A stretch of 40,394 bases of DNA from assembly GCA_002689345.1 (NCBI GenBank), contig NZFU01000053.1:1-40394 (forward strand), given 5' to 3'. Below, in pieces: positions 12,822 through 32,341 of this stretch. The stretch comes from Methanobacteriota archaeon (GTDB lineage Archaea > Thermoplasmatota > Poseidoniia > Poseidoniales > Poseidoniaceae). The first letter of the stretch is position 1, and each line of letters opens with the position of its first letter. The notes under the pieces are model-generated. The model searched no databases, was not told where the DNA came from, and saw only the letters and a program-made list of their open reading frames with translations. A program made the position numbers and the translations under genes.

Positions 12822-14795
12822 TCACAACTCTTGTTCTCGATTAGATCTAGCGTAAAAGACGGCGCCTAAAGTGGCTAGTATCATTGTGACTCCGAGGAAT
12901 CCAGGTGTATTATCTTCGTCCTTATCTTCATCATCATTAGATGTAGGCTCAATACCTCCGTCACCAACAGTAATCTTACCGAACATGTCCAAGGAGATAT
13001 GTGGTTCACATGCATAATAGAAGATTGTATCTTCTGTAAATGTGTGATGGAAATCAACGGTAGTTGCTGCATTTCCAGAAGTAATTCCTCCTTCAACATA
13101 GGTTGACGACTTCATTCCATCTACTTCCTTAACATTGTGAGCCATTTCCGCATCGGTCCATTGCCAACATACAGTTTGATTGACCGCTATTGTTACAGAT
13201 GCTGGTGAGAATGCAGATCCATCAGAAGATATTCCAATAGTTACATCACAGGTTACAACGTCAGATTCGTTTTCTTCTACTTCATCCGCTGGCGGCATAA
13301 TCACTTTGTCAATAACATGGATTACACCATTGCTTGCTGGAACATCTGCAAGGGTAACCATTGCCATCTCAGTTCCAACCATTACACCGGAATCTGTGAC
13401 ATGAATCATCAGATCATCGCCATTTGCCGCTGTAACCGTTGTCATTCCCACAGTTAAATCGGATGACATAATCTTACCAGGCACTACGTGGTAAAGTAGT
13501 ATGTCTGCGAGTGTCTCTGTTGACAATTCTGGGTCTGATAAATCAATACCTGCTGCGACAAATGCTTCGTCTGTAGGTGCAAATACTGTATAATTATCTT
13601 CACCAGAAAGAGTTGCAACTAAATTGGCTTGAGTTAATGCTGCAACTAATGATGTGTGAATCGAAGTTGCTGCAGCTGTCATTGCAATATTGACCGCTGG
13701 CGTCCACATGTATCCTTCACAAATTGCTTGACTTTGATTAGCAACTGCATGTGACACCATATTGTAACAACCGGTAACAGTTTGTCCTTGTACTTCGTAA
13801 TCTTCTACGTACATGTATGCTTCACAAGATGTTTGATCTGCACCAGGAACAATTGTATGTGTAATGACATTGTAACAGATTTCTCCTTCAGGTCCCATGT
13901 CCGGCATCAATACTTTATCGATGATATGAATGACACCATTGCTTGCCATAACATTCGCAGTAGTTACTGTTGCATCATTTACCATTACACTATCAGAATC
14001 GATAGTAATCATGACTTCTTCTTGATTTAACATAGTAACTGCCATTCCATCGCTCAGTGCATCTGAAGTGACAGCTCCCATTGTTACATGGTATGCTAGA
14101 ATATTTGCCAAGGCTGTAATTCCATCATCCCCTTCGAAATCTGTCAAGTCAATATTTGCGTCTGCAAATGCCTGATCTGTTGGGGCGAACAATGTGAATG
14201 GTCCGTCACCTTGAAGTGTTTCTAGAAGATTCGCTTGTACCACTGCTGCTACTAATGATGTGTGAACTCCAGTCCCAGTAGCAACAGTTGGAATGTCAGG
14301 CTCCTCTATTACAGGAGGCATGAGTACTGTGTCGATGACATGAATAACACCATTGCTAGCCATTACATCAGGTGTGGTAACATTTGCATTTCCGATCATC
14401 ACCGTTCCATCAGATACGGAAAAACTTGCATTATCCCCATTCATCATTGTGACGGTAAGACCATCGGTAACTGCACTTGATTCAACTGAACCTTGGTAAA
14501 CATGGTACAACAAGATATCAGTCAGAGTTGCATTGCGTTCATCGGTATCATATGTAGATAAATCAATTCCAGCATTTGTGAATGCATCATCGGTTGGAGC
14601 AAACACTGTGAAGGGCCCTTCACCCTGAAGAGCAGATACTAAATCGGCGTGCACAAGTGCTGCAACGAGAGAATCATGTTCTCCAGTTGCTGCAGCATTT
14701 GCAGGTATATCTTCGGTCTCATCAGCAGACACGCCAAATGGCAGGGCCGACAGCATAAGTAAGGCTACAAGTAAACTAACGCTTTTTCTTTGCAT
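12822..14795 (-). CDS. Surface protein with three fasciclin domains, blue-copper domain and PGF-like C-terminal anchor
   Basis: This 657-residue exported protein starts with a signal peptide (about 1-24). Three FAS1 domains follow (about 33-160, 170-298, 370-501), each with VFAPTD/LFAPTD and SNGVIHVID-type motifs. Between the second and third sit two short Cys repeats (C307/C324 and C343/C359) of the form CYNxxxH...CExYM. A cupredoxin domain (about 514-611) has a full type 1 copper set: H553, C596, H599, M604. The acidic linker ends in PGFLG at 631-635, a hydrophobic helix and basic SNR, resembling archaeosortase PGF-CTERM signals. Adhesion plus electron transfer at the surface is inferred. 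A TATA-like box lies about 26 bases upstream of the ATG. Confidence 0.9.
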   Translation of the reverse strand: MQRKSVSLLVALLMLSALPFGVSADETEDIPANAAATGEHDSLVAALVHADLVSALQGEGPFTVFAPTDDAFTNAGIDLSTYDTDERNATLTDILLYHVYQGSVESSAVTDGLTVTMMNGDNASFSVSDGTVMIGNANVTTPDVMASNGVIHVIDTVLMPPVIEEPDIPTVATGTGVHTSLVAAVVQANLLETLQGDGPFTLFAPTDQAFADANIDLTDFEGDDGITALANILAYHVTMGAVTSDALSDGMAVTMLNQEEVMITIDSDSVMVNDATVTTANVMASNGVIHIIDKVLMPDMGPEGEICYNVITHTIVPGADQTSCEAYMYVEDYEVQGQTVTGCYNMVSHAVANQSQAICEGYMWTPAVNIAMTAAATSIHTSLVAALTQANLVATLSGEDNYTVFAPTDEAFVAAGIDLSDPELSTETLADILLYHVVPGKIMSSDLTVGMTTVTAANGDDLMIHVTDSGVMVGTEMAMVTLADVPASNGVIHVIDKVIMPPADEVEENESDVVTCDVTIGISSDGSAFSPASVTIAVNQTVCWQWTDAEMAHNVKEVDGMKSSTYVEGGITSGNAATTVDFHHTFTEDTIFYYACEPHISLDMFGKITVGDGGIEPTSNDDEDKDEDNTPGFLGVTMILATLGAVFYARSNREQEL

Positions 14796-20312: not shown

Positions 20313-20369
20313 TTAGGCCACAGTTTTGAATAGGGTAATGCTTGCAGAGTCGTTTAGGTGAATCCACCT

Positions 20370-22400
20370 ATGCGCACAATTCGTCCACTTTTATTGTGTG
20401 TTATCCTACTATTTTCCTGCACACCTGCCTATGAAGCTCAGGCTGAGACTGTAGAGATTTGTTGTGATTCCGGGCCTGTGGAATTGCATTTGCTTGGCCC
20501 AGCGAGTTCAGGTACCATGTCACCATTTGATGCCGAATTAAATGCTGAATCTGAAGAGGTCACAATTTCTGATGCTATTGCACAGCAACAAGAGATTGCG
20601 GTTTGGAAAATTAATCCTGCGTGGTCAGGAACTTATCCATCATCCACCTGGGAGTTTTCAATCGAATATGAAGTAGCAAATGCAGGTGGTGCACAAATCA
20701 ATGCATCGGTATCTGTGGAGATCAGTGGAGAAACTTTCATTGGAACAACCGACCAATCTAATTCATTCTTACCTGCGGGAAGTGGAAAATTAAGTATTGA
20801 TATCAATGTTGAAGCTGGCTCAATTCCTTCATCAACCGAAATCAGTGTCACACTTCTAGCACAGACAGTTGTGTTTAGCGTACCTGGAACAGATGCTGGA
20901 TTGACATTTAATTGGGGAGGAGTTGATGATGACTCGACAATTATGGCAGATATTCCTATTGTCGACCTATTGATTGATGAACCAACATCGGAAGGAATGG
21001 ATGTCTATGTCTCCATGGTTGTCGCTTCACCATTTGGACAAATGACAGCAGCGCATGCTAATAGTCTTGAATTACGAGTCAACAATGGTGTAGTCACAGG
21101 AGACCCTATCGAAACGAGCAGTGGACAATTTGTACGCCTAACTTGGACATGGAGAGCAGTTGTCGAGGGTGAGCAAAATATCACTGTTGAAGGAAGCATA
21201 CAAGTTCAGTCAGGCACCCCTACACTTTCAGGTAGCACTGAATTTACAATCAGTACATTTGATGATGGCAATGATGGAGGCGGGACATTTTATCCCACAG
21301 AAGAACCGCTGAGAACGGATGGAGGGGGGTCTCCATTAATTGTCAATATGGAACTGAATCTCAACAATACAATGCAAGATGGTGACCAATATCTCACGCT
21401 TGAACGGACAATCGAATTGACTGTCGACGAGGAAATAGCCTATTGGATGAGATGGGGAATGGACAACATTGGTAATGAAGACCCTAGCCTAACCACATCT
21501 CTAAGAATTTTTAATTCAGGAATGGTTAGTGAAGATGACAGAAGAAACAGAGTAATCGACGATGTCGAAAAGAGTGAATTCGAAAACCAAATGGTTAACT
21601 TAGCTGTAACCTACATGAACGAAGGAATGGCTTTAGAATTAGAAGAGCTAATCGGTAATGATGTTATGAATTTGGAAAAAATCTCATTCTCAGTTGATTT
21701 ATTAGGCGAGGATAAAGTAACACCTCACCCTCTAACTTTGACCATTAAAACTGAAGAAATCTTAGGCGGTAATAACCTAACTACTTTGGTTAGAAATTTC
21801 GTAATTGTCCAGCCGTCTCCGATTTGGTCAGGTATTGATTTGAAAATAATGATCGAAACCGGAATCATGGCTAGTCTAACTGGTGCCTCGATTGGAGGAG
21901 ATGATTCTTTGGAATTCACACATAGAAGAACTCCATTTGGTGAATCGATTGAAATCAATGCCCAAAATCTAGAGCCTGGAGCTACATTCTCATTCACTGC
22001 AATGCCCACCAATAATCCACTAAACGCTCCATTGAGTTTGACATTAATCACACTGGGCATTTTGGCAGGAGGATTCTGGTTCGCTATGCGTCTTACTAAG
22101 AAAAAGAGGCGAAGTGCTCTGTGGATTGAAATGGTTTTGATTCCTGTAGTCTTACTTACATTGTACTTAGCATACCCTCCTTTTACTGTAGGAGTAATTG
22201 CTGCAACTGCGGTAACTATGTGGATTATTACCGCTATTGCAAGCCCACGAAGAAAGGGCCTAGCCGTTGATAAAATTGAAACTACATTCCCGATTATTGA
22301 ATGTCCTGCATGCAGCACACCTAATCCAATCACTACTGATGAGCGTCCTTTCCGAATGCCATGTAGTGGATGTGGCCGAGTGTTGAAAATTGTCGAGTGA
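20370..22400 (+). CDS. Exported membrane protein with C-terminal zinc ribbon
   Basis: The 676-residue product begins with a signal peptide (MRTIRPLLLCVILLFSC...AEA). A long beta-rich outer region (about 25-555) follows, then membrane helices at about 560-580 and at 595-635 in two spans. The C-terminal soluble part carries CPAC (C645, C648) and CSGC (C665, C668), a treble or ribbon zinc site expected in the cytoplasm. ATG 20370 is preceded by AGGTGA 8 bases upstream; a GTG at 20358 is less likely. I recognise no named family for the outer domain. The gene ends directly against the convergent RecJ-like gene, whose stop begins at 22401. Zinc ribbon and topology suggest a sensor or adaptor role, but this is inference. 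Confidence 0.8.
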   Translation: MRTIRPLLLCVILLFSCTPAYEAQAETVEICCDSGPVELHLLGPASSGTMSPFDAELNAESEEVTISDAIAQQQEIAVWKINPAWSGTYPSSTWEFSIEYEVANAGGAQINASVSVEISGETFIGTTDQSNSFLPAGSGKLSIDINVEAGSIPSSTEISVTLLAQTVVFSVPGTDAGLTFNWGGVDDDSTIMADIPIVDLLIDEPTSEGMDVYVSMVVASPFGQMTAAHANSLELRVNNGVVTGDPIETSSGQFVRLTWTWRAVVEGEQNITVEGSIQVQSGTPTLSGSTEFTISTFDDGNDGGGTFYPTEEPLRTDGGGSPLIVNMELNLNNTMQDGDQYLTLERTIELTVDEEIAYWMRWGMDNIGNEDPSLTTSLRIFNSGMVSEDDRRNRVIDDVEKSEFENQMVNLAVTYMNEGMALELEELIGNDVMNLEKISFSVDLLGEDKVTPHPLTLTIKTEEILGGNNLTTLVRNFVIVQPSPIWSGIDLKIMIETGIMASLTGASIGGDDSLEFTHRRTPFGESIEINAQNLEPGATFSFTAMPTNNPLNAPLSLTLITLGILAGGFWFAMRLTKKKRRSALWIEMVLIPVVLLTLYLAYPPFTVGVIAATAVTMWIITAIASPRRKGLAVDKIETTFPIIECPACSTPNPITTDERPFRMPCSGCGRVLKIVE

Positions 22401-23294
22401 TTACAAATGGCCACTAACTATTAGTGAGTCTGCAATGCTACTAGCGTGAACTCTAGCATCGTCAATATCATCTGGCCAATCATTTCCAGCAAGGTGTAAC
22501 TGACTGGCAATATCAACTTCATTACCTGGAATCATAACCCTATGCCAAATTAATTCTTCGAGCCTCATGGTAGAAATTCCGTCCAATCTTAAAGTTGGTA
22601 ATACAAGTTCACTAATTGCTGAACTTCTTTCATCGACATCCATTGTAGGCCATCCTTTAGCTAGCCTCTTGAGCATTCTCTGTGATAATCCAGGAACTAT
22701 GTCTACCACAGGAGATGGCACCTCAGGTAGTGGACAGATGTCGATTGAACCCTCTGCATCCAAATGGTCTCGAAGTAGGGACATTACTGGGTCGTAGTTC
22801 GCATCAATACCTTGACGCAGCCAACAGCCGGAAATTGTCATGGAACGTTGTTTCCTTACCCTTGAACCTTCAGGTGCAAGCATCGATGAAATTGCTGCAC
22901 ATAATGCAACACATTCAACCGCTCCATGATGATCATTTTTTGATGACTCCAATTTGATTAGTACAGATAGTGGTGAAATATGAATATAATTTTCAGTTAT
23001 CTCCAAAGTAGATTTAGAATCCTGAAAAGGGTCGATATGAATGATTAACCCGTCAACCTCAGGTAATTCATGAACATGGTCTCGCCCAGTATGCTTTCTA
23101 GGAGGTAAGACTCTGCGACGATAGTGTAGAGCATTATCCAAAAAAGCGGCTTCTAGTTGCGCAAGAGCAAGAACACCTTCGATATCGGCAGGCGCCATTA
23201 ACTGAACCAATTTAGCCGATGAAATCTTGTCGACAATATCCGCTAACTGCTCTTCGATTGAAGAAAAAATCGGCGATTGTAGCAGATTGTTCAA
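22401..23294 (-). CDS. Degenerate RecJ/Cdc45-like (DHH-superfamily) protein
   Basis: The 297-residue protein has VQLMAPADIEGVLALAQLEAAF at about 30-51, aligning with the DADG strand-loop-helix (VxSHxDADGxxSAxxL) of archaeal RecJ-like nucleases. No DHH motif is visible; the corresponding region reads LIIHIDPFQDSKS. It is shorter than typical archaeal RecJ/GAN proteins of 450 or more residues. It lies directly downstream of rps15, a pairing I recall for archaeal RecJ-like genes. A non-catalytic Cdc45-like replication partner is a reasonable inference. The start is TTG 23294, supported by AAGGTGAG 3-4 bases upstream. Family assignment is moderate. Confidence 0.55.
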   Translation of the reverse strand: MNNLLQSPIFSSIEEQLADIVDKISSAKLVQLMAPADIEGVLALAQLEAAFLDNALHYRRRVLPPRKHTGRDHVHELPEVDGLIIHIDPFQDSKSTLEITENYIHISPLSVLIKLESSKNDHHGAVECVALCAAISSMLAPEGSRVRKQRSMTISGCWLRQGIDANYDPVMSLLRDHLDAEGSIDICPLPEVPSPVVDIVPGLSQRMLKRLAKGWPTMDVDERSSAISELVLPTLRLDGISTMRLEELIWHRVMIPGNEVDIASQLHLAGNDWPDDIDDARVHASSIADSLIVSGHL

Positions 23295-23349
23295 CGACTC
23301 ACCTTACCTAGACACCTGGTAGGTAGTTCATCAAGTTGAGTGTGTAGTA

Positions 23350-23811
23350 TCACTCAACCATCAAGCGAAGTTGGTCACGCTTGTACTTCCAATCAGAAGC
23401 TAGGCGACCTTCGCCGATGTAATACTTAGCAAGGCGACGAATCTTAGCCTCAGTAAGTTCAAGAGAACGCTTGTTGTGAATGTCTTTGTGGTTTCCAGAA
23501 CCAATGTGCTCGATGATTCCAACAGCCTTGCGCATTAGATTCATCATATCTTCAGGATATGTTCCACCAATGTCATTCTCAGATAGAACAGCAGAGATTC
23601 TCTTACCGTCCAATACTGCGCGTACATCAGGAACTGCGTGCTGATCACGAAGAATTGTTCCAATTGATGCTGATGAATGTCCTGTCTTTCCTAGTTCAAC
23701 AATGAGTGCGGTTACCGCTGCTGCATCAGTGTTTGACCACTCTGGTGCAGATTCATTGTGTGGCTTTGTGGAACCGGACTTACCTTTCCTCTTAGCGTAC
23801 ATACGTGCCAT
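23350..23811 (-). CDS. rps15: Ribosomal protein S15 (archaeal/eukaryotic S15p/S13e)
   Basis: The 153-residue frame starts MARMYAKRKGKSGSTKP, the typical archaeal N-terminus, and continues through LDGKRISAVL and PEDMMNLMRKAV to HKDIHNKRSLELTEAKIRRLAKYY, the conserved 16S rRNA-binding helices. It is longer than bacterial S15 because of the archaeal N-terminal extension. A 39-base upstream extension of the frame was rejected in favour of ATG 23811, which has GGAGG 8 bases before it. It is a component of the small subunit platform. It lies between archaeosine synthase and the RecJ-like gene on the same strand. Confidence 0.96.
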   Translation of the reverse strand: MARMYAKRKGKSGSTKPHNESAPEWSNTDAAAVTALIVELGKTGHSSASIGTILRDQHAVPDVRAVLDGKRISAVLSENDIGGTYPEDMMNLMRKAVGIIEHIGSGNHKDIHNKRSLELTEAKIRRLAKYYIGEGRLASDWKYKRDQLRLMVE

Positions 23812-23819
23812 AATGGATG

Positions 23820-23824
23820 CCTCC
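23820..23824 (-). promoter_or_regulatory. Ribosome binding site of rps15
   Basis: GGAGG sits 8 bases upstream of ATG 23811 on the minus strand. It decides against the longer frame that would begin at 23850. Confidence 0.65.
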
Positions 23825-23883
23825 GAGCATTCCGCCGACCTATCACCCATTCTTAACCGCTACGCATAGACAAAATCTGAGTT

Positions 23884-25617
23884 TCACAGTCTTTGATGCA
23901 TTTTTGCGAGGCGTCCAGGAGTTCCCGACCATTCCCAAGCAGGTGCTGCCGCCCTAGCAGAACCGAGGCACTGAGAGCCTTGCATCACCAGAATATCTTC
24001 TCCAGCCTTTATCGATTCATCATAGGATTCGAGGATTGCAAGATTAACATCCCCTTTCCACTTCAGATTTTCTTTCAGGCTTATCCGCTTGAGCGAGCCT
24101 AGTGAATCCAACATCTCGACACAGGCTTTAGAAATTGAAAATCCACCTCTTTCTGGAGCCCACATTGCAATTTGTTCATTATCTTTCAATATCTTCCAGC
24201 GAGGAAATCTACCTCGGACTTGAACCCCATCTAACCATGAATCATTCAAATGGTGAAATCTTGCAACCGAGCGGAAATTATCGATATTGATTTTTTCACC
24301 ACTACGTCGTTTTACTTGCATATTGTCAAGAACACTTTGCTCGAGTCTTTGGAGAGCTTCATGATTGGTAGATGAAGCGCCCTTTCTTGTATCGATAACT
24401 GGGATGTCGCATTGATATTCCATACCTGAGTGATTAATAATTACCCTGTAGGTATTTTTTGCAACCAAAGAATCGATCATTTTTGTGACTCTATCGATTT
24501 CATCCCTAGTCCAATCTCCAGTTACGGGAATATCATAATGCCCTGCAGGCCAAACTTCTTCTAAATCTCTAGGAACAAGCCCTAGAGGTGAAGTTACAAT
24601 TACTTCATGTGCGGCATTATGATTCATAGCCCTACGAAACGCCTTATGACTTCTTGAGGAAGAATATGGTTTACGCGCAGAACATGGAAGAAGTATGAGA
24701 ACCTCATCTAATCCTTCGGGAGCCTTGTATTCATTAGAAATGAAATCAACCCAATCAAGAATAACTGGATCGTCATGCGATTCCACGCTATGAATACGGA
24801 GCGCCGTGCCTTTACTCACGATTTGTGATAATATTCCATCCGAGCCTGAAATTAATTTGTCATGATTTCTCAAATGTTCCACAAGTCTTGGGCTATTCAG
24901 GGATTGAGATTGAGCCAACTCACGTAATGAATTGCTGGACATTGCAGAACGCACCTCTGCTAGAGCGGTTTTCCAATGGTCAACACCTGGCTCATTTTCC
25001 ATTAGCATCCTTGGTCCATTCCAAGTCAGTACTGCACCATGTGATTCCGCTTGCTTAGAACGTGTTGTATCAAACAAATCTATGCCAAACCAAGAAAGTA
25101 CTGCACAATTATCTGGGCCACCTATACCTGGAGCCCACAGTAATGAACCAGGAAAACGACGTTTGATTACATGTATTGCTTCTACTAGCCTACCTGGTTT
25201 GTTTGCAAGTTGAAGAGCATCTGTAAGCACTACAACATGAGGATTCAAATCTTGGTCTAATAATCCTTCATCATGATTGAGAGATTGCCAAGAAATGGGT
25301 AGTAAGTCGCCCTTTGAGGCCACTTCACCAGCATCTGCTTCATCCAAAGAAGGAGGAAGCACATGGCCTATTGAAGCAGTAAGAACTGGGCCATTCTCCT
25401 CAGACTCCCAAGGTGCAAAAGGTGCTCGAGAATTTAGTGTAATAGTCCTAGGTATTGCTCCGTCACTGGATGTCGAGAATGGAGCCCAAACAACATCCAT
25501 CTCATCATCAGTAATTACCAATCCCGGGGCAAAGGAGGAAGGTGCAGACCTATCTCCTAAACTCCACAATCTAGCAAGTCGATGACGCGCCAAGACTGTG
25601 CGACCTAAGCCTCCCAT
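23884..25617 (-). CDS. arcS: Archaeosine synthase (ArcS / TgtA2)
   Basis: ArcS takes part in converting the preQ0 base at tRNA position 15 to archaeosine (G+), acting after the tRNA-guanine transglycosylase. The 577-residue product shows a TGT-like region (about 1-280), the hallmark LLPCSARKPYSSSRSHKAF at about 309-327, and a C-terminal PUA domain (about 515-577) with GEDILVMQGSQCLGSARAA for tRNA binding. Length and PCSxxKPY motif fit ArcS rather than TgtA. It starts at ATG 25617, divergent from the gene at 25683. No tgtA or QueF-like gene lies in the window. The gene supports an archaeal host. Confidence 0.9.
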   Translation of the reverse strand: MGGLGRTVLARHRLARLWSLGDRSAPSSFAPGLVITDDEMDVVWAPFSTSSDGAIPRTITLNSRAPFAPWESEENGPVLTASIGHVLPPSLDEADAGEVASKGDLLPISWQSLNHDEGLLDQDLNPHVVVLTDALQLANKPGRLVEAIHVIKRRFPGSLLWAPGIGGPDNCAVLSWFGIDLFDTTRSKQAESHGAVLTWNGPRMLMENEPGVDHWKTALAEVRSAMSSNSLRELAQSQSLNSPRLVEHLRNHDKLISGSDGILSQIVSKGTALRIHSVESHDDPVILDWVDFISNEYKAPEGLDEVLILLPCSARKPYSSSRSHKAFRRAMNHNAAHEVIVTSPLGLVPRDLEEVWPAGHYDIPVTGDWTRDEIDRVTKMIDSLVAKNTYRVIINHSGMEYQCDIPVIDTRKGASSTNHEALQRLEQSVLDNMQVKRRSGEKINIDNFRSVARFHHLNDSWLDGVQVRGRFPRWKILKDNEQIAMWAPERGGFSISKACVEMLDSLGSLKRISLKENLKWKGDVNLAILESYDESIKAGEDILVMQGSQCLGSARAAAPAWEWSGTPGRLAKMHQRL

Positions 25618-30924: not shown

Positions 30925-31431
30925 ATGGAGAGACTCAAACTTACAGGAATCGATGAAGGATTGTCTGTATTAGTCTCAACTAAATTATCGGGAGCTGACC
31001 AGCCTGAACTTGTTCTTGATGCAGTATTGAGACTGTTTCCAGAATTTACTTGTGGCCTTCCAGATAAGCCAACATTCCCTTCGATGCAAGATGACATCTT
31101 AGCAGCAGAAGGAGTTAGTCTTGGTGAATTCCTAGATACGATTCACAAGCAGGCTATCCTCGATACCTCGCTTGATTTCATGTCAGCCAATTTAGATGAC
31201 ACTGGCACGATATTTCAGATTTCACGACAAGCTGCAATGGTAGGTAAAGTGGCATTCCCTCTGCCCGGAGATAACCCATTGGGAGGAGTTATCACAGTAG
31301 AAATCGGTGGTGAAAATCTTGAGGATTGGCTTGAAGCCGCTACTTGGCACAGAGGAAGAGAGGATATCCCTCGTCGTATAGGTGATGAATTCACTATGGA
31401 TGATAAGGGTGAAGCGGTAACCTGGCACTAA
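30925..31431 (+). CDS. UPF0201 family RNA-binding-like protein
   Basis: The 168-residue product fits the archaeal UPF0201 (COG1325) family: an N-terminal VLVSTKLSG strand, LDAVLRLFPEF, a central LDTIHKQAILDTSLDF helix, then TIFQISRQAAMVGKVAFPL and NPLGGVITVEI, which parallel the family's LNKQAAFVGRVNF and PLGPIEV motifs. The family has been proposed to be linked to RNA processing or the exosome; this is not shown here. ATG 30925 is preceded by GGGGTGTA. It has about 30 extra C-terminal residues (WHRGREDIPRRI...TWH). The end overlaps the convergent Pcp-Nudix gene by 38 bases. Confidence 0.8.
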   Translation: MERLKLTGIDEGLSVLVSTKLSGADQPELVLDAVLRLFPEFTCGLPDKPTFPSMQDDILAAEGVSLGEFLDTIHKQAILDTSLDFMSANLDDTGTIFQISRQAAMVGKVAFPLPGDNPLGGVITVEIGGENLEDWLEAATWHRGREDIPRRIGDEFTMDDKGEAVTWH

Positions 31432-32341
31432 TCGCTTCTGCAATCTCTTGGTCAGGCCCTAACCAACTAACTTCGTTTGGCCCATCACACCACTGGGTCT
31501 TGTCGTGAACATGCAGTTTCATTTCACCATCAACGATGTGGCATTCCAAAACATGAAGTCTTACAACTACATCATCGTGATCAAAAATCCATGTACCAAT
31601 TAATTCACCAGTTGTAACTTCTAATTCTAATTCCTCTTTTATCTCACGCACTAAACATGCTGCAGCATCTTCTCCTGGCTCAAATTTACCACCTGGAAAT
31701 TCCCACCATCCTGCATGTTTCTCATTTGGAGCTCTGCGGGCTGCTAGAAATTTTCCATTGTGAATAATAGCGCCTGCGCCAACATCGATACAAGGTGGTC
31801 TAAGCATCCTATCTAGACATTGTAAAACCAATCCTTTAGCATCGCTTTGTTTTGGTGGAAGGTGAAGAAAGAAGCAAGGAGTGTTATCTTTAATTCTTGA
31901 AAGTGTGTGGTATAATGTTTCATTGCAAACAAATTCCCCAGCATCATTGCTAATTATTGGCGAATCTACCATTCTCTCAATATCCCAATCTTCGGGCTTA
32001 ATAGTTGAAAATAAGTCACCATTTCCACTGATTGTTTTATTGATAATTTTACGTCCTGAGTTATCCGGTATTCGGAAATCAAGTATATCCCTAGCCCTTA
32101 TTTCAATACGAGGAGATGTGGAATTTTCTGCTAGCCCCAAATGAATGATTGCAGCAAACTTTCGTTCAGTAATTAATTTAGAAACTGTCGTAGCACCATC
32201 ATTATTGACAGGTAATACAAGAGTTTCAATTACATTCCCTCGTACATTTTTACCAGATATTTCGCTAGCGACAATACCTGAAATATTGGTTTCATGCTTA
32301 CCGAAAGCCTCGAAACCCGTGACAAGTACTGACGCCCCCAT
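31394..32341 (-). CDS. Pyroglutamyl-peptidase I fused to Nudix hydrolase
   Basis: The 315-residue protein joins two enzymes. Residues 1-180 match C15 pyroglutamyl peptidase: VLVTGFEAFGKHETNIS, HLGLAE, RIEIRARD with E80, SNDAGEFVCNETLY with C139, and FFLHLPPK with H160, the likely Glu-Cys-His set. Residues 185-315 match a MutT/NudG-like Nudix hydrolase, with WWEFPGGKFEPGED and the Nudix box from G218 to L240 (E224, R232, E233, E236, E237). The box glycine at 239 is Glu. Pcp removes N-terminal pyroglutamate from peptides; the Nudix half may clear damaged nucleotides. Start ATG 32341 lies 4 bases from the divergent gene's ATG. Confidence 0.9.
   Translation of the reverse strand: MGASVLVTGFEAFGKHETNISGIVASEISGKNVRGNVIETLVLPVNNDGATTVSKLITERKFAAIIHLGLAENSTSPRIEIRARDILDFRIPDNSGRKIINKTISGNGDLFSTIKPEDWDIERMVDSPIISNDAGEFVCNETLYHTLSRIKDNTPCFFLHLPPKQSDAKGLVLQCLDRMLRPPCIDVGAGAIIHNGKFLAARRAPNEKHAGWWEFPGGKFEPGEDAAACLVREIKEELELEVTTGELIGTWIFDHDDVVVRLHVLECHIVDGEMKLHVHDKTQWCDGPNEVSWLGPDQEIAEAISARLPLHPYHP

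Follow-up and report, generated by a model that had tools for sequence, protein, structure and literature searches.

A gene beside rpsO in the marine archaeal order Poseidoniales is best described as encoding a shortened, nuclease-dead Cdc45-like protein

The gene that follows rpsO in the Poseidoniales (Marine Group II archaea) is best described as encoding a shortened, nuclease-dead Cdc45-like protein. We consider it probable (roughly 0.7) that the protein is the Poseidoniales ortholog of GAN/RecJ, the archaeal Cdc45, and that, after the loss of its nuclease site and of DHHA1, its remaining role is that of a purely structural subunit in the replicative helicase (CMG). The main mechanistic argument for a structural, GINS-docking role is that a strongly conserved surface of the protein corresponds to the docking edge and not to the active site. 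The names GAN and RecJ nuclease are unsuitable, because the catalytic motifs are not conserved and the DHHA1 domain is absent.

The gene was analyzed in a window of 40,394 nucleotides, the whole stretch of DNA under study, and the features discussed here are listed in Table 1. A preliminary description, made from the sequence alone, had proposed a TTG-started open reading frame with a ribosome site and an rps15 neighbor. The frame and the neighbor were borne out, and a possible ribosome site was seen: the frame runs on the minus strand and encodes 297 amino acids, a GGTGA string resembling a ribosome site lies 4 nt before the TTG, and the neighboring product matches the family models of the archaeal uS15 protein. 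The TTG start was further supported by the alignment, since most of the aligned relatives carry M, V or L (an ATG/GTG/TTG-type start) at the same column. The Cdc45-like gene lies downstream of rpsO at a spacing of 55 bp, and its 3' end abuts a convergent gene. rpsO adjoined the Cdc45-like gene in all 48 loci that were read and lay upstream in the same direction in 47 of them; the exception was L038, in which the Cdc45-like gene is inverted. Neither tRNA genes nor Rfam matches at the gathering score were detected in the window. The Cdc45-like protein showed no Pfam match and a single, meaningless NCBIfam match, and the analysis of 30 members of the family alignment with Pfam and NCBIfam gave no recognition. 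Two multidomain proteins are encoded elsewhere in the window on the minus strand, namely a 315-aa frame combining a pyroglutamyl peptidase (Peptidase_C15) domain with a NUDIX domain (31394-32341) and a protein in which three Fasciclin stretches accompany a plastocyanin-like copper domain (12822-14795).

Table 1. Positions of the Cdc45-like gene, its neighbors and its sequence features within the window.
Feature	Position	Strand	Remarks
Cdc45/RecJ-like gene	22401..23294	-	297 aa, TTG start; predicted inactive DHH domain and helical C-terminal part, without DHHA1
rpsO, ribosomal protein uS15 (archaeal)	23350..23850	-	matches PF08069, PF00312 and NF006331
GGTGA, possible ribosome-binding site	23299..23303	-	4 nt 5' of TTG
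DUF5591 protein, weak TGT-like match	23884..25617	-	upstream of rpsO
Convergent gene, C-terminal zinc-ribbon-like motif	20358..22400	+	conserved downstream neighbor; no Pfam match over the cut-off
DHH domain, residues 1-184	22743..23294	-	AlphaFold2 model, PDB matches, profile match to the DHH part of GAN (E 3.1e-6)
ADIEG, residues 36-40, degraded form of motif I, which is DxD-G in active GAN	23175..23189	-	in register with motif I of GAN
Helix alpha2 and edge strand beta2, residues 38-63	23106..23183	-	predicted docking surface for the GINS B domain, from the model and conservation; Cdc45-Psf1 interface described in part of PMC4873980
Chance DHH tripeptide, residues 121-123 (KNDHHG)	22926..22934	-	off the catalytic motif
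W158, invariant (72/72)	22821..22823	-	adjoins the place of the motif IV GD pair of active GAN (profile register)
Helical C-terminal part, residues 185-297	22404..22742	-	falls on the CID/helical-bundle region of GAN only in the whole-chain alignment

The family was detected in 284 of 318 Poseidoniales genomes, representing 21 of 22 genera, and in 34 of the 35 genomes of this order with at least 90% completeness and at most 5% contamination. The Cdc45-like protein was encoded by 56 of the 61 genomes nearest to that of the window. A chance reading frame was excluded because of this distribution among the nearest genomes and across the order, together with the constant adjacency to rpsO. In a sample of 145 genomes of the phylum, 35 matched at E <=0.1; the 33 strong matches all came from the Poseidoniales, the other two were short and weak (E 0.02 and 0.09), and the sample contained no confident member outside the order. 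The search of genome contigs returned 112 stretches with a relative, of which 80 were kept, and one scan of viral contigs with a single-protein query returned no close relative. No account of this family was found among the papers surveyed on the Poseidoniales, Marine Group II and the Thermoplasmatota in connection with Cdc45, RecJ or GINS.

The fold of the protein was predicted by AlphaFold2 from 47 sequences with a mean pLDDT of 92.0 and a pTM of 0.91. In the Foldseek search against the PDB, the model best matched archaeal GAN/RecJ and then Cdc45 (probability 1.00); the 22 matches at E <=0.001 were all archaeal GAN/RecJ except one Cdc45 (Entamoeba), followed by bacterial RecJ and human Cdc45. 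An unrelated fold, which would have refuted the reading of the preliminary description, was not predicted. The VIA-align 2 comparison placed T. kodakarensis GAN, P. furiosus RecJ and M. thermautotrophicus RecJ-Cdc45 highest (Z 14.2-14.7), human Cdc45 at Z 10.7-12.1, bacterial RecJ at Z 10.6-11.5 and PDE-type DHH proteins at Z 8-9. The top match was GAN in complex 7e15 (Z 14.7, rmsd 4.6, 247 aligned), and the aligned range of GAN comprised residues 1-321 of the approximately 470-residue chain. A DHH-type RecJ/Cdc45 fold is therefore well supported by the predicted model.

The sequence relationship to GAN was evaluated by profile comparison. With 72 family members and 19 GAN-type sequences, the local alignment covered 142 columns with an E value of 9.3e-5, the global alignment gave E 5.3e-6, and the best of 40 column shuffles reached E 0.039. 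In this alignment, motifs I and II and the strands corresponding to DHH and GD were in register. The DHH parts alone matched profile to profile at the E value given in Table 1, the best of 60 shuffles being 0.017. The match between the family and GAN was significant only at this size, as an earlier, smaller comparison of 30 with 13 sequences was insignificant (probability 3.6, E 0.012). The search of PDB sequences with the family profile returned no RecJ relative.

Next to rpsO, a full-length GAN is found in other archaea, as described in part of PMC3307487. rpsO was located in 23 of the 25 genomes queried, and in 13 of those loci the gene behind it encoded a RecJ/GAN-type protein of full length (405-459 aa), including L176 from the same class as the window. 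The motif I aspartate, the DHH and the GD aspartate were kept in 11 of these 13 proteins (L176 and ten other Thermoplasmatota loci). The full-length RecJ/GAN-type proteins beside rpsO at L161 (586-1857, plus strand) and L179 (77-1372, minus strand), from two other Thermoplasmatota genomes, have lost the catalytic motifs partly and largely, respectively, and apparently represent separate inactivations.

A GAN profile was used to search 145 genomes of the class, 21 of which are listed from the sister family f3, so that up to 124 are Poseidoniales. No full-length GAN was detected in any Poseidoniales genome searched, and 7 of the 21 listed f3 genomes contained one. The best Poseidoniales match scored 45 bits and fell on a DHHA1 region, whereas the seven full-length GANs scored 470-570 bits. 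In genus g22 of f3, none of the 14 listed genomes yielded a full-length GAN with the profile, and at L170 and L174 of this genus rpsO is followed by a gene that resembles a tRNA methyltransferase by eye. The genome of the window was also checked for another, active RecJ; it encodes three PF01368 proteins, two of which (428 and 322 aa) carry DHH and DHHA1 domains, whereas the third (290 aa) has only a borderline match to DHH. As none of the three is a full-length GAN, a second catalytic RecJ/GAN in this genome was rejected; the genome is 77% complete, and the absence of GAN from it alone therefore proves little. Because the predicted fold is that of GAN, and GAN occupies the same rpsO slot elsewhere with none found in the Poseidoniales genomes searched, the assignment of the Cdc45-like gene as a derived GAN/Cdc45 ortholog is well supported. 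In the simplest history, the GAN of the class ancestor would have been replaced in situ in the Poseidoniales by a shortened, catalytically dead descendant.

Invariant or near-invariant residues cluster, among other places, in the helix formed by residues 38-53 and the strand formed by residues 58-63, in which E48, Y58 and R60 were present in all 72 members and D53 in 69. The best conserved element of the whole protein was the helix of residues 242-250, with E246 and W250 in 72 of 72 members and E247 in 71. In human Cdc45, Psf1 of GINS docks on edge strand beta2, which is flanked by alpha2, alpha3 and helix alpha16, according to part of PMC4873980, and portions of PMC5484177 and PMC12035558 describe the archaeal GAN-GINS51 contact as essentially the same as that of Cdc45-Psf1. 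On the model of the GAN-GINS51 and Cdc45-Psf1 contacts, edge strand beta2 of the family protein would receive a beta-hairpin from the C-terminal B domain of its GINS51-like partner. The C-terminal helical part may touch MCM on its N-terminal tier, and through these contacts the Cdc45-like protein would help to close and activate the MCM ring with no cutting of DNA.

The presence of the putative partners was also analyzed. MCM was found in all 13 genomes tested. A GINS51-like candidate, found through a weak Sld5 match, was present in 56 of the 61 relatives, including the genome of the window (G000:C41:6751-7749, minus strand, locus L219). The candidate has a long linker and a B-domain-like C-terminus, and is hardly recognized by Pfam or NCBIfam. 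Among 21 of its members, NCBIfam Gins23 matched 7 (best E 0.0046), Pfam Sld5 matched 4 and PSF1_C matched 2, and the profile search against the PDB gave no match. Its identification as GINS51-like, made partly by reading the C-terminal sequence pattern, is weak.

Genus g12 (family f2) was the only one of the 22 Poseidoniales genera to lack the Cdc45-like gene, which was found in none of its four genomes with an f2-rich profile. At the g12 locus, the DUF5591 gene and rpsO have the same order as in the window and the Cdc45-like gene is missing. In G037 and G051 (L172:1501-1962 and L173), the rpsO stop abuts the stop of the convergent neighbor, indicating a clean absence. Both genomes retain MCM and a GINS-like match, so the function of the Cdc45-like protein is not universally required, and in g12 the protein is either dispensable or replaced by another one.

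The absence from g12, the weak identification of the GINS partner and the co-direction with rpsO in nearly every locus would also fit a relic RecJ that kept its fold and its position but now acts elsewhere than in the replicative helicase, perhaps as a scaffold linked to repair or translation. This reading is unlikely, since other archaea hold GAN, a component of the CMG, in the same rpsO slot (in the parts of PMC3307487 and PMC5484177 that treat it), the most conserved N-terminal surface is the GINS-docking one of Cdc45 (likewise in part of PMC4873980), and the Poseidoniales genomes searched yielded no other GAN that could take the place of Cdc45.

The C-terminal part of the chain was compared with GAN separately. 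The protein is approximately 140 residues shorter than the GAN of the same class, and no DHHA1 match was obtained in the 30 family members searched. In the class relative L176, Pfam DHHA1 lies at residues 362-432 of 438, which corresponds to the region of GAN beyond the aligned range. DHHA1 is thus absent from the family protein, as the alignment ends at GAN residue 321 and the domain lies beyond it, and with DHHA1 missing there is no inter-domain groove for the threading of ssDNA. The helical C-terminal part alone matched the middle region of GAN by profile at E 0.01, which is not significant, and the column-shuffle control for this part was unusable, with at least 1 of 60 shuffles giving E 1.1e-23. 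Pfam DHH_CID gave a single weak match among 30 members (E 0.069). When residues 178-297 were folded by themselves, the model was confident (pLDDT 91.8) yet resembled no solved structure. A CID, and hence a contact with MCM, is not established by these results, because the C-terminal 120 residues alone match no solved structure.

A protein that gave up the MCM contact and acts purely as a GINS adaptor, for example as a tether of DNA polymerase D, would agree with conserved docking elements and a C-terminal part that has no independent CID match; moreover, both RecJ and the small subunit of the polymerase are binding partners of GINS51B in Thermococcus, as described in a portion of PMC12035558. 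Such a role is nevertheless quite improbable, given that the whole-chain alignment still reaches into the GAN chain as far as residue 321 and that the helix of residues 242-250 suggests a kept C-terminal interface.

The catalytic motifs were examined in the 72 family members. As noted earlier, the DADG-like motif is reduced to ADIEG. The accompanying claim that no DHH is present held only in part: the literal tripeptide does occur at residues 121-123, although it lies off the catalytic strand, and any DHH string was found in only 3 of the 72 members. D37 was present in 48 members, D or E at position 39 in 44 and D88 in 41, and the strand matching the DHH motif contained no conserved D or H. 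Across the 72 aligned members, motifs I-IV (DxD, D, DHH and GD) have no conserved metal ligands. The suggestion in the preliminary description of a non-catalytic, shortened form parallel to Cdc45 is supported by this pattern and by the reduced length.

The window protein itself keeps D37 and E39, and D88 is common, which would agree with a still-active enzyme, nuclease or phosphatase, whose unusual metal site is made of these three residues; such an enzyme is very improbable, however, because D37 and D88 vary among the members, the DHH-motif strand has no conserved D or H, W158 is invariant next to the position of the GD pair, and the DHHA1 domain is lacking. Least probable of all is a coincidental resemblance of an unrelated Rossmann-like protein, with which the lack of family model matches and of RecJ relatives in the PDB profile search would agree, but against which stand the position of GAN well above other DHH folds in the structural comparison, a profile match significant against shuffles, and the rpsO locus shared with GAN.

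A more tentative and rather doubtful proposal is that the Poseidoniales helicase runs with a minimal Cdc45, reduced to the inactive DHH domain plus a short tail of helices, so that DHHA1 and any ssDNA groove would be dispensable for Cdc45 function, and that g12 has deleted this protein and operates MCM-GINS without Cdc45. No settled explanation exists for the presence of a dead nuclease in the eukaryotic helicase. One archaeal class here spans a full-length active GAN, a shortened dead form and an apparent loss, and the parts of Cdc45 needed for MCM activation therefore become testable. The family is spread through a widespread and abundant order of ocean archaea, yet it is unrecognized by Pfam or NCBIfam.

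Among known systems, GAN (T. kodakarensis GAN and P. furiosus RecJ) resembles the family in the fold of its DHH domain, as the best structural match and in its rpsO-linked locus. However, GAN has approximately 470 aa, actively degrades ssDNA as a 5'-3' exonuclease and possesses motifs I-IV, a complete CID and DHHA1, whereas the family has neither conserved motifs nor DHHA1. Eukaryotic Cdc45 shares the inactive DHH domain and the conserved alpha2/beta2 edge on which Psf1 docks, but it retains a large CID as well as a DHHA1-like domain that is pinned to its DHH domain, and the family protein is approximately half its length. Other parallels are the inactive, rpsO-linked RecJ orthologs of Halobacteria and Crenarchaeota (Desulfurococcales and Thermoproteales; arCOG00428, arCOG00432 and arCOG05692), which Makarova and colleagues already likened to Cdc45 and proposed to be structural subunits of the replication machinery (part of PMC3307487). 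Unlike the Poseidoniales family, arCOG05692 is described there as keeping most of the DHHA1 core elements, and the portions of PMC3307487 drawn on here mention neither the Poseidoniales nor a loss of DHHA1 with the DHH domain kept. RecJdbh of Sulfolobus/Saccharolobus (arCOG05902), likened here by description only, is a relative of RecJ, truncated and inactive, which takes the role of Cdc45 and binds GINS, according to part of PMC7776575. Inactive archaeal RecJ/Cdc45 proteins are thus already known, and what appears to be new is a further independent inactivation, accompanied by the loss of DHHA1, in a large marine order.
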